Source of the DNA: Desulfosporosinus acididurans
Lineage (GTDB): Bacteria > Bacillota > Desulfitobacteriia > Desulfitobacteriales > Desulfitobacteriaceae
Length of the DNA: 64,000 bases
NCBI RefSeq assembly: GCF_001029285.1
Contig: NZ_LDZY01000002.1
Coordinates: 1 to 64,000 of the forward strand
Direction of reading: 5' to 3'
Part shown: positions 5,544-58,257 of the stretch, piece after piece
Layout of the letters: each line of letters opens with the position of its first letter
Position numbering within the stretch: the first letter of the stretch is position 1
Notes under the pieces: model-generated
The model's database searches: none
What the model saw: the letters and a program-made list of their open reading frames with translations, nothing else
Told to the model about the DNA's origin: nothing
Translations under genes and position numbers: made by a program

Positions 5544-5600
5544 TTTATCCAATCGTAAGACTCCCACTTCTTTAAGTGGAAGTGGGTCCCCTGTACTCTG
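5544..5600 (+). repeat. Dispersed hairpin repeat, copy 1 (partial)
   Basis: It begins TTTATCCAATCGTAAGACTC and carries the hairpin CCCACTTCTTTAAGTGGAAGTGGG. It is nearly identical to the first half of the full copy at 27359-27477. It fills the gap between two leftward genes. Inferred to be a fragment of an IS200/IS605-type element end. Confidence 0.7.
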
Positions 5601-5634
5601 ATAGTCATTGCACAAAGGGAAAGGCATGAAAGGG

Positions 5635-27358: not shown

Positions 27359-27477
27359 TTTATCCAATCGTAAGACTCCCACTTCTTTAAGTGGGAGTGG
27401 GTCCCCCGTACTCTGCTTCGGTGGGGTAGAGTCCCCCACCGAAGTCCCGATGTTCAGCTTTAGCTGAACGAGCTTAC
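27359..27477 (+). repeat. Dispersed hairpin repeat, fullest copy
   Basis: It has three consecutive stem-loops: ACTCCCACTT/AAGTGGGAGT, CTTCGGTGGGG/CCCCACCGAAG and GTTCAGCT/AGCTGAAC, ending GAACGAGCTTACT. Parts of the same array recur at 5544, 27650, 32860 (inverted), 35002, 41145, 49434 and 51955. Inferred to be the 3' non-coding end of IS200/IS605-type elements that have lost their genes. Confidence 0.8.
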
Positions 27478-27649
27478 TATAGGTCTAACTGCGGACACAT
27501 AAAAAACAAAGCGATATGATTCTTCTCAATCTAGGTGACGCTAATATTGACCATTTATCTATTGATATTTTCTCATAGATATGATTCACTTTTATTATAG
27601 AAATAAGATCAGTTTTTTAAAAGGAAAATTTTATCCTCGTGCGACAAGA

Positions 27650-27732
27650 AGTCCCCAACTCTAAGCGTTAGCGTATCCAAAGACTTCTACTTCCACAAGT
27701 GGGAGTGGTTCCAATACCTTGCTTTGGTGGGC
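27650..27732 (+). repeat. Dispersed hairpin repeat, degenerate copy
   Basis: Shares ACTTCCACAAGTGGGAGTGG and the GCTTTGGTGGG arm with the copy at 27359, only 170 bp away, between two genes. Confidence 0.55.
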
Positions 27733-27773
27733 ACGGAAAATAGTACAATTGATAATAAGGAGGGAGCAAAGGA

Positions 27774-32186: not shown

Positions 32187-32762
32187 ATGGCGCATAAATT
32201 TAATCCAGGAAATAAAAGAAAGCTCGATGACCAGTGGCGTCGACAGAATCTCCCTCCAAAACCTACATTAGAAAAACTAGGTCTTAATTCCGACGATACT
32301 CTTGCTGATGTAGGGTGTGGGATAGGGTATTTTACTATCCCAGCGGCCGAAGTGATCAAATCACCCAATAAAGTATTTGCTTTAGACACTTCAGAAGAAA
32401 TGTTGGCCGAGGTAGAAAAAAGAGCTGATGATGCCGGTATATCAAATATCGTCTTAATTAAGACCGAAGAATATGGCTTAAAGCTTCCTGATCAAGCTGT
32501 AAGTTTTGTCCTCTTAGTCAATGTACTCCACGAAATTGACAACCAAGAAGGATTTCTCGGCGAAGTGTATCGTATATTAAAAACTGATGGTAAAATAGCC
32601 CTGATTGATTGGGAAAAGAAGGCAACGGAAATGGGTCCTCCCTTAGATCATCGAATAAGCAGTCAAGATGCTCAAGGTTTGCTGCAAACAGCAAGTTTTG
32701 AGCTCTTAAAAGAAATGTCATTCGCTGAAACATTTTATGGTTTAGTAGCTATTAAGAAGTGA
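32187..32762 (+). CDS. Class I SAM-dependent methyltransferase
   Basis: The 191-residue protein has the Rossmann methyltransferase motifs: VGCGIGYFTIPAA (motif I, about residues 37-49), ALDTSEEML, then VLLVNVLHEID (motif IV, about 105) and LIDWEKK. AAGGAG precedes the ATG. The substrate is unknown; close relatives are often annotated UbiE-like or arsenite methyltransferase-like, but the arsenite cysteines are missing here. Confidence 0.85.
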   Translation: MAHKFNPGNKRKLDDQWRRQNLPPKPTLEKLGLNSDDTLADVGCGIGYFTIPAAEVIKSPNKVFALDTSEEMLAEVEKRADDAGISNIVLIKTEEYGLKLPDQAVSFVLLVNVLHEIDNQEGFLGEVYRILKTDGKIALIDWEKKATEMGPPLDHRISSQDAQGLLQTASFELLKEMSFAETFYGLVAIKK

Positions 32763-32859
32763 ACTTATTTAGCAAATGCTGAATATCGAGCTTCGGTGAT
32801 GAAAGTGTCCTGTGGACACTTTCGCCGAAAGCCCTAGCTCATAACAAATTCTATCGCGC

Positions 32860-32955
32860 TGAAGAGGATGGACTCTGCCCCCGCCGAAGAGAGAACGAGA
32901 TACCCCTGCTTTATCTTAGAAGTTGGAGCCTTGCGGTTGGACAAAAGTCTTATAC
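32860..32955 (-). repeat. Dispersed hairpin repeat, inverted copy
   Basis: On the minus strand it reads GTCCAACCGCAAGGCTCCAA, followed later by CTTCGGCGGGG and CAGAGTCC, a diverged version of the 27359 copy in the opposite direction. It lies between the methyltransferase and the GntR promoter. Confidence 0.55.
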
Positions 32956-34987: not shown

Positions 34988-35001
34988 GTTTCTAAAAGTA
35001 T

Positions 35002-35076
35002 TTATCAAATCGTAGGATCCCCTCTTCTACAAGGAAGGGCTATCCTTGCTTCACCTTTAAACTGAACGAGTTCACT
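35002..35076 (+). repeat. Dispersed hairpin repeat, degenerate copy
   Basis: It contains ATCAAATCGTAGGATCCCCT and ends ACTGAACGAGTTCACTT, matching the two ends of the full repeat with a shortened middle. Confidence 0.6.
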
Positions 35077-41144: not shown

Positions 41145-41220
41145 TCATAAGAATCCAATTACACGACTCCCGCAGTTGCAAGTGGGAGTCGTACCCCGTA
41201 TTATTTACGGTGGGGCTAGG
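41145..41220 (+). repeat. Dispersed hairpin repeat, copy in the iclR leader
   Basis: ACACGACTCCCGCAGTTGCA and AGTGGGAGTCGT form the first stem-loop, and CCCCGTATTATTTACGGTGGGG the second, as in the 27359 copy. It lies inside the predicted leader transcript of iclR. Confidence 0.65.
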
Positions 41221-41321
41221 TACGAAAGTATGTTGGTTCTTTGAAAATGTAATGTTTCGGAACCGAGAAATCACATCCCCTAATGGGTGATAGGAAAAGG
41301 TGTTCAGAAGGAGGACCTATA

Positions 41322-42098
41322 GTGGCAGAAAAATATGTGCAAACTCTCGAACGTTCGCTGGATGTTCTGGAGGTGCTCGCTCACGCGGAAGAGCCTTTAG
41401 GGGTAACAGAAATAGGCAATCGCATTCAGTTGCATAAGAGTACAGTTCATCGTATTTTACAGACATTATGTTACCGAGGTTATGTCGAGCGAACAAAAGG
41501 GAACGAACATTATCAATTAGGAATTAAAATTGTAGAACTGGGAATTCGCTTCTTTAACGATCTTGAGATTCGTAAAGTTGCAGGACCTGTTCTCAATGAT
41601 TTAGCAAAATTATTGAATGAGGTTGTTCATTTAGTACTGCCTGACGATGGTGAGATCGTATATATTGACAAAGCTGAAAGTTCTCATGTAGTAAGTATGC
41701 ATTCCAAGGTAGGGCGAAGAGCACCTATGCATTGTACGGCTGTAGGTAAGGCTATTCTTTCTACACTTCCCGAGGAGGAGGTTCGGCACATCTTAGAGGT
41801 CAAAGGTATGACTCGTTATACGCCGAATACAATCGTTGATCCGGAAGTTTTATTTAAAGAGCTGCAATCGATTAAGGAAAGTAAAATTTCCGTCGAGAAG
41901 GAAGAAAATGAGATCGGAATCATTTGTTTGGGAACACCTGTTTTTGATTATTCGGGACGAGCCATTGGAGCAATCAGCGTTTCAGGTCCTGCCAGCAGAA
42001 TTCAGGAAAAGGGTATCGAGCGAATTGGGCAGGAAATGAAAAAAGCCGGCGAAGAAGTTTCCACAAAATTGGGATTTAACTATTTCCAAAAACTATAA
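41322..42098 (+). CDS. IclR-family transcriptional regulator
   Basis: The N-terminus is a winged helix-turn-helix (TLERSLDVLEVLA; GVTEIGNRIQLHKSTVHRIL) and residues about 80-250 form the IclR effector domain (RRAPMHCTAVGKAILS, PVFDYSGRAIGAISVSGP). The frame starts upstream at 41283, but the GTG at 41322 follows AAGGAGG at seven bases and gives the standard 258 residues. Boxes of the form TGAAAC-N3-GTTTCA lie before its own gene, glcF and the citE-like gene, making it the likely local regulator of 2-hydroxyacid use. The effector is probably glycolate or glyoxylate, by context. Confidence 0.92.
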   Translation: MAEKYVQTLERSLDVLEVLAHAEEPLGVTEIGNRIQLHKSTVHRILQTLCYRGYVERTKGNEHYQLGIKIVELGIRFFNDLEIRKVAGPVLNDLAKLLNEVVHLVLPDDGEIVYIDKAESSHVVSMHSKVGRRAPMHCTAVGKAILSTLPEEEVRHILEVKGMTRYTPNTIVDPEVLFKELQSIKESKISVEKEENEIGIICLGTPVFDYSGRAIGAISVSGPASRIQEKGIERIGQEMKKAGEEVSTKLGFNYFQKL

Positions 42099-49433: not shown

Positions 49434-49500
49434 GTTTATCCAATTGTAAGCAAGCCTCCCACTTCTCCAAGTTCATTCATTGACCGAACTATGGCTAACT
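49434..49500 (+). repeat. Dispersed hairpin repeat, truncated copy
   Basis: TTTATCCAATTGTAAGCAAG followed by CTCCCACTTCTCCAAG and CCGAACTATGG is a shortened version of the repeat at 27359. Confidence 0.6.
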
Positions 49501-51866: not shown

Positions 51867-51954
51867 GTTTAATAAGAAGCGTTTACGCATTTTGTAACAG
51901 CTCCTCTTTATTATTTTAAAACATATTATTTCATTAACTCTTTAATCTAGTGTA

Positions 51955-52105
51955 AGGCTCCTATTTTGAGTGGGAGTGGTTTTCATAACTCACTTCGGTG
52001 GGGATAGAGTCTATCCTTCAAAGTATCGAATGTTAGGGGCTAGACGCTTTTGTTATTGAAGCACCAATGTTCAGCTTTAGCTGAACGAGTTCACTTACAG
52101 AAATG
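51955..52105 (+). repeat. Dispersed hairpin repeat, long copy
   Basis: It keeps the middle and right parts of the repeat: GAGTGGGAGTGG, CACTTCGGTGGGG and the end GTTCAGCTTTAGCTGAACGA GTTCACTT (split). It lies between the MFS and the universal stress gene. Confidence 0.7.
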
Positions 52106-58066: not shown

Positions 58067-58257
58067 TTTAAACATCAGCCGGAAAACAACCCCCATTTAT
58101 AGAAGCAGGGGCCTTAAGAACTGAATAAATGGACCTTCAATAGTAATTAATGTTTAATACACGAGAAAATGTAAAACAGCACCTAAATACACCAGATTAT
58201 TACTAAATGATTATTAAAAAAGTGAACATACTAAAAATTAATAAGGAGGTGGTATCA

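Follow-up and report, generated by a model that had tools for sequence, protein, structure and literature searches.

What maintains a small array of three hairpins between the genes of Desulfosporosinus acididurans is the question raised by positions 27359–27477 of the 64,000-nucleotide stretch of DNA analysed here (the window), for which a first-pass annotation had suggested orphan TnpB guide RNA scaffolds. The evidence indicates that the three-hairpin repeat is very probably a gene-less, non-autonomous element of the IS200/IS605 type (Y1 HUH), i.e. a PATE-like MITE, and the sequences at its ends suggest that its landing site is most likely chosen via a four-base DNA guide. We know of no report of this repeat family, and no earlier description of it was recognised among the open-access papers listed for Desulfosporosinus with intergenic repeats, transposable elements or MITEs (the first 8 of 2,412 loose matches for the last two) or for PATEs.

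Anatomy of the repeat

The copy at 27359–27478 is a complete short form, read on the plus strand like all of its features given here, and the three inverted-repeat pairs previously annotated in it are present. Its left flank is the target pentanucleotide TTTAT (27359–27363) with TTAT as the predicted left cleavage site (CL); insertion 3′ of TTTAT is deduced from the empty sites of other copies and from target logos. The mobile element proper, CCAATCG...GAGCTTAC, occupies 27364–27477, and since the family consensus ends in GAGTTCAC, the right cleavage site of this copy has drifted from TCAC to TTAC. The predicted left DNA guide (GL), AAGA, lies at 27372–27375 and is based on two covarying pairs, guide base 1 with target position −3 and guide base 2 with −4, as in IS608 (PMC5934647). 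It is followed by hairpin 1, the left-end subterminal palindrome CTCCCACTT/AAGTGGGAG (27376–27397), with changes on both sides in three of ten pairs, and by the internal hairpin 2, CTTCGGTGGGG/CCCCACCGAAG (27416–27444), with such changes in four of 12. Hairpin 3, the right-end subterminal palindrome GTTCAGCT/AGCTGAAC (27452–27469), has 98.9% of cells paired in the hand-written structure described below and both-side changes in one of eight pairs. The predicted right guide (GR), GATG, was placed at 27449–27452 from the sequence and the rule given in PMC5934647, the register being the one that fits TCAC under the IS608 code; it is a weaker assignment than GL because the right end varies little.

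As read by eye, the family consensus runs TTTAT-CCAATCGT-AAGA-CTCCCACTT...AAGTGGGAG into a variable part and continues as CTTCGGTGGGGG...CCCCCACCGAAG-TCTC-GATG-TTCAGCT...AGCTGAA-CGAG-TTCAC-T, the end hairpins being of the CTCCACCTT and TTCAGC types. Both ends are sharp and common to most full copies. The middle is modular: in some other copies the region around hairpin 2 has a different, longer sequence, and extra hairpins bring the length to ~155–190 nt. Further hairpins, e.g. AAAGTGTCC/GGACACTTT, are found in the middles of the window copy at 32758–32945 and of L033, L034, L037 and L202, and are apparently exchangeable modules. At L019, tandem-like units (GTTTACGTCTTTAGACTTAAGTTTGCGTCGTTCTA) adjoin the insertion in its left flank.

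The element measures ~110–190 bp, too short for a transposase, and contains no transposase gene. Its hairpins are subterminal and terminal inverted repeats are absent, the ends TTTATCCAATCG and GAACGAGTTCACT not being inverted repeats of each other. PATEs are defined by these same features (PMC3119063), so that the repeat falls within the published definition, including palindromes near both termini, represented here by hairpins 1 and 3, both of which show compensatory changes.

Copies in the window and pairing of the hairpins

When the window was searched with a covariance model made from 39 copies, ten rows resulted, two of which belong to a single copy; the E-values are rough. There are thus nine copies: that at 27359–27478 (E 3e-33), the seven other sites of the first-pass annotation, each of which was recovered, and one outside its list at 58077–58129 on the minus strand (E 2e-4). 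The recurrence therefore stands, and the claim of a three-hairpin array at every site stands in part. The short form is complete at 27359 only, and both ends are retained in two long variants, one at 51941–52095 on the plus strand (E 1e-13; exact right-end motif at 52069–52094), the other of ~190 nt with an extra internal hairpin at 32758–32945 on the minus strand (pieces 32864–32945, E 3e-6, and right end 32758–32803). The remaining listed sites, all on the plus strand, are truncated or decayed: a left-end-only copy truncated after hairpin 1 (5544–5602, E 1e-9), a decayed copy (27667–27733, E 3e-8), a short, partly decayed copy whose 3′ end is still GAACGAGTTCACT (35001–35076, E 3e-7), a partial copy (41150–41223, E 3e-5) and the weakest, a truncated left-end copy (49435–49474, E 0.009).

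Pairing was also said to persist despite base changes, which is borne out in 24 diverse copies: pairing is kept in 94.3% of cells, a percentage that, like that for hairpin 3, leans towards the three-hairpin structure because the structure was written by hand on this cleaner alignment (22 of the 39 rows of alignment A1 plus L013 and L016 of D. acididurans, the other 17 rows, mostly with large indels, being left out). In these copies 27 cells are changed on both sides, compared with 7.0 in shuffles and 3–5 in slid controls, and the pairs changed on both sides number eight, compared with 4.3 and 3–4, respectively. Compensatory changes are found in all three hairpins. RNAalifold gave just four pairs on the gappy alignment A1, and the covariance model (R1) therefore rests mostly on sequence.

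Distribution and abundance

The D. acididurans genome contains 66 exact right-end motifs, compared with none for the pattern read backwards, and at least 44 blastn matches (40 of 311 candidates scored). The repeat is present in 26 of 40 genomes, D. acididurans included, among them 23 of the 24 of the genus Desulfosporosinus, and of 73 genomes of the order 29 contain the exact right end. Among named genomes, a scan with at least 109 loci added Acididesulfobacillus, Desulfotruncus, Tepidibacillus and Halothermothrix and Dethiobacter MAGs, among others. Searches of plasmids, phages and viral contigs gave no match. In genome G048, 15 of 29 extracted copies are identical and the mean identity is 98.8%, which points to recent movement or amplification there. 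In this MAG of 2.2 Mb, the nearly identical copies number at least 29 (L333, L381–L400), whereas the single Y1 match is a fragment close to the edge of a contig.

Insertion sites

The joined flanks of nine D. acididurans copies were searched across the genus, and clean empty sites were found for five of them, all in the sister species G008. The sequence before the junction is GTTAT (L013), TTTAT (L016), TTGAT (L018), TCTAT (L034) or TTGGT (L038), and in all five it is followed by T; therefore, exactly CCAATCG...TTCAC was inserted, before T and 3′ of a short fixed sequence that resembles TTNAT, and the target was not duplicated. Two of these sister targets (GTTAT and TCTAT) are one base off TTNAT and a third is TTGGT, which counts against the reading. 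No clean empty site was found for L012, L024, L037 and L039; at L039 the queried site held unrelated sequence, and for L037 one flank alone matched. Of 112 motifs, 107 have T directly after TTCAC, the positions beyond being mixed, and in three other genomes T follows the element in 16 of 17, 29 of 29 and 6 of 6 motifs. A +1 base preference of the same kind is described for IS608 and ISDra2 (PMC5934647).

Covariation of guide and target

IS608 has the target TTAC and the left guide AAAG, with the contacts A+16:T−3 and A+17:T−4 (PMC5934647), from which our designations guide base 1/target −3 and guide base 2/target −4 were derived. The four bases 5′ of hairpin 1 behave like the IS608 left guide: they are mostly AAGA and, with the target TTAT, satisfy the IS608 code. 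Guide base 1/target −3 was the sole significant pair of 24 scanned (p 0.002, uncorrected) among 47 Desulfosporosinus-type left ends, kept for a target ending in AT and a fitting spacer (three rows were dropped for their target, the others were unmatched) by a filter chosen after the unfiltered scan had been seen; in that scan of 56 rows, some of them out of register (e.g. L161), the pair was outside the 12 best. Watson–Crick matches at this pair occur in 33 of the 47 left ends, compared with a permutation mean of 23.4 (p 1e-4). When guide base 1 is A, position −3 is T in 26 of 31 cases; when it is G, −3 is C in six of 14 and T in five of 14. The single C faces G, and the single T faces T, a mismatch.

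For guide base 2, the Halothermothrix MAG G046 has T in all 22 left ends recovered from 31 loci and A at −4 in 20 of the 22, the guide ATGA accompanying the target TATAT and not TTTAT, and in G048 the guide AAGA accompanies T at −4 in 30 of 30 left ends. With the subfamilies pooled, the Fisher p for T/A at target −4 is 7e-18, but the switch in G046 is one subfamily or lineage event, and other left-end columns therefore changed alongside. The pooled table for T at guide base 2 has A 21, T 8, C 5 and G 2 at −4, some rows being out of register, and T at guide base 2 is found together with T at −4 in two Desulfosporosinus copies (three in the unfiltered scan). The guide and target sets are AAGA with TTTAT, GAGA with TTCAT or TTTAT, and ATGA with TATAT. 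At the right end, which barely varies, GANG with TCAC fits the code. Pairing of the target with a guide at the hairpin foot, a trait of the IS200/IS605 family, is thus reflected in covariation, from which a few copies deviate.

In the mechanism that we propose, a Y1 HUH TnpA supplied in trans would bind the hairpins at the two ends while the DNA is single-stranded. The left guide AAGA would pair with TTAT, the target, and GANG, the right guide, with TCAC; the excised single-stranded element would then be rejoined beside a new target. We infer that a DNA role maintains the hairpins and that an RNA role is not necessarily required. Counting against the mobile-element reading, a replication-strand bias was not found, codirectional copies numbering 27 of 42 in G009 (p 0.09), 17 of 40 in G045 and 14 of 24 in G007. 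Origin and terminus were assumed for G007 and located for G009 and G045 by sampling 20 windows in each genome; a bias in G009 suggested by the best-scoring rows was dropped after the fuller set.

Alternative explanations

That the repeat is of the REP/BIME type and spread by a domesticated Y1 transposase (RAYT) is very improbable. REPs are likewise palindromic and tied to tyrosine transposases (PMC2817692), and frames of RAYT-like length (~180–350 aa) with a weak Y1 match are present in many genomes of the genus, that of D. acididurans measuring 266 aa (L044). However, GTAG, the usual mark of REPs (PMC3733652), is absent at the hairpin foot, and ~110–190 bp with two distinct ends contrasts with the 20–40 bp of REPs (PMC3733652); the consensus is accordingly not a palindrome of that size tagged with GTAG. 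Furthermore, none of the RAYT-like loci fetched (L044, L117–L124) has the repeat within ~1.5 kb, and G014, with 365 first-look candidates, has no RAYT-length frame among its 14 Y1 matches.

A dispersed regulatory RNA or 3′-UTR element under host selection, such as a terminator, a processing site or a small RNA, is very improbable. It would agree with the compensatory changes in all three stems, with the mostly intergenic copies and with the copy at 41150, which, as annotated before, lies upstream of an IclR-type gene (41283–42098). The earlier wording that copies are always between genes broadly holds, with the exception that four of 29 D. acididurans copies with flanks extend more than 20 bases into an open reading frame of 80 aa or longer (83–85 aa in three of the four overlap cases, those listed). 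Against host selection, no clear preference of orientation or context was seen among 27 copies (10 on the same strand as their neighbours, 8 on the opposite strand, 5 divergent, 4 convergent), the sister species lacks the repeat at five sites, many copies are truncated, and none of the three hairpins in 27359–27478 is followed by a T-run. Individual copies could nevertheless be co-opted for host regulation.

In TnpB elements the guide scaffold is located at the right end. On a guide RNA reading, the copies would be transcribed as orphan TnpB or IscB guide RNA scaffolds, the flank past the right end being the guide for a resident nuclease. The hairpins are indeed conserved, RAGATH-18 adjoins TnpB in L100, and the 5′ flank TTTAT/TTGAT resembles TnpB target motifs. 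TTGAT is the ISDra2 target in PMC5934647. The repeat is, however, absent from the TnpB loci examined or a separate neighbour of them, and none of these tnpB elements has it as its 3′ terminus. All five D. acididurans TnpB loci with long frames (L001–L005) end in other right-end hairpins, and BLAST of ten TnpB loci of this genome and 28 of the genus found the repeat in three (L009, L092, L096), each time outside the end of the element. L092, L096, L104 and L009 had been considered as TnpA/TnpB-linked copies and were rejected, each being a separate neighbour. The covariance model, run over 46 TnpB, IscB and Y1 loci (L009, L091 and L092 not in the set), found just two copies, each of them a separate neighbour (L241, L096); its six remaining rows have E 0.17–0.86. 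In tblastn of 77 TnpA/TnpB-locus frames against 109 loci with the right-end motif, five loci matched, in every case at a distance of over 2 kb from the motif. Moreover, no PF07282 match was found in 12 of 29 genus genomes, including G009 and G012, which have 130 and 191 first-look repeat candidates; IscB is found in three of the 29 and not in D. acididurans, and the internal part, the would-be scaffold, varies widely among copies.

Rfam returned nothing at gathering scores for the repeat in the window, and no match to a known TnpB or IscB RNA family; HEARO adjoins three iscB genes, yet was not detected on either strand of the repeat. The positive control was partial, with RAGATH-18 detected beside one TnpB gene, and the silence of Rfam is weak alone because a TnpB RNA was flagged in only one of the nine TnpB loci given. 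A RAGATH-23 match on the repeat, well under the cutoff (18.4 of 92.6 bits, E 0.49), was absent from 11 other sources and taken as chance. The RAGATH-18 RNA itself lies downstream of a TnpB gene in G043 (L100, 1362–1425, minus strand) and is probably an IS607-type TnpB guide RNA, RAGATH-18 being described as the guide of IS607 TnpB (PMC11061315). With no examined TnpB element ending in the repeat, orphan guide RNA scaffolds are a very improbable explanation. The accompanying pointer to IS605-type ends was well placed, since boundaries, target and guide pairing obey IS200/IS605 rules.

A possible partner and its significance

No tnpA element with the end hairpins of the repeat was found by BLAST against the Y1 loci of D. 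acididurans, of the genus (28 of ~100 matches) and of five other genomes, which gave separate neighbours or nothing; this counts against the preferred reading as a mobile element moved in trans. The copy-rich G048 and G046, assemblies for which completeness is not stated, contain Y1 fragments only. In the repeat-rich G008 the Y1 frames are all RAYT-like (266 and 185 aa); with only such frames in G008 and none in G014, neither class of transposase alone explains the spread. Candidate partners are found among IscB elements. Four iscB (RRXRR) loci (L240–L243) are present in three Desulfosporosinus genomes, with HEARO upstream in L240–L242. The Y1 match that comes after iscB is a fragment in L240, partial in L242 and full length in L243. 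The repeat and the IscB elements appear by eye to have a common cleavage code, and the hairpin sequences of the repeat were not matched in the IS605-type loci examined; since the shared code was read by eye and the hairpins differ, the IscB elements are candidate partners only. A wider proposal, which we regard as tentative and rather unlikely, is that a gene-less family in several bacterial lineages has shifted its own landing site by guide mutation, exchanges internal hairpin arrays, and may parasitise the TnpA of IscB elements with the same target. If true, transposase, nuclease and parasite would have one site code in common.

The mobile-element reading would explain a conspicuous repeat of Desulfosporosinus genomes and remove a tempting but unsupported tie to TnpB guide RNAs. 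The IS608 pairing code rests on structures and engineered retargeting (PMC5934647), and natural guide–target covariation gives it genomic support from many insertions. The element ends would also be a simple substrate for identifying the mobilising TnpA.

Comparison with known systems

The IscB/HEARO elements L240–L243 resemble the repeat by eye in their TTTAT flank, their TTCAC end and their guides AAAA and GAAG, which fit the code. They differ from it in encoding IscB, in having HEARO in three of four cases and a Y1 match beside three of four, and in their hairpins.

Like IS608 and ISDra2, the repeat is inserted 3′ of a fixed target of 4–5 nt with no duplication, and it has a guide tetranucleotide at the hairpin foot and a +1 base preference (PMC5934647). 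Unlike them, it lacks tnpA and tnpB, and its target is TTNAT before T, whereas theirs are TTAC before C or TTGAT before G. The left and right hairpins of IS608 are the same (PMC7290912), whereas those of the repeat differ, which we count against the mobile-element reading.

The PATEs of Haloquadratum and Halanaerobium are similar to the repeat in having palindromes near their ends and no terminal inverted repeats, in the absence of target duplication and in a length insufficient for a transposase (PMC3119063, PMC7290912). For the Desulfosporosinus repeat no IS605 parent with matching ends was found among the loci examined, and it is distinguished from PATEs by its sequence and hosts, by its variable middle hairpin arrays and by natural guide changes that are matched by target changes.
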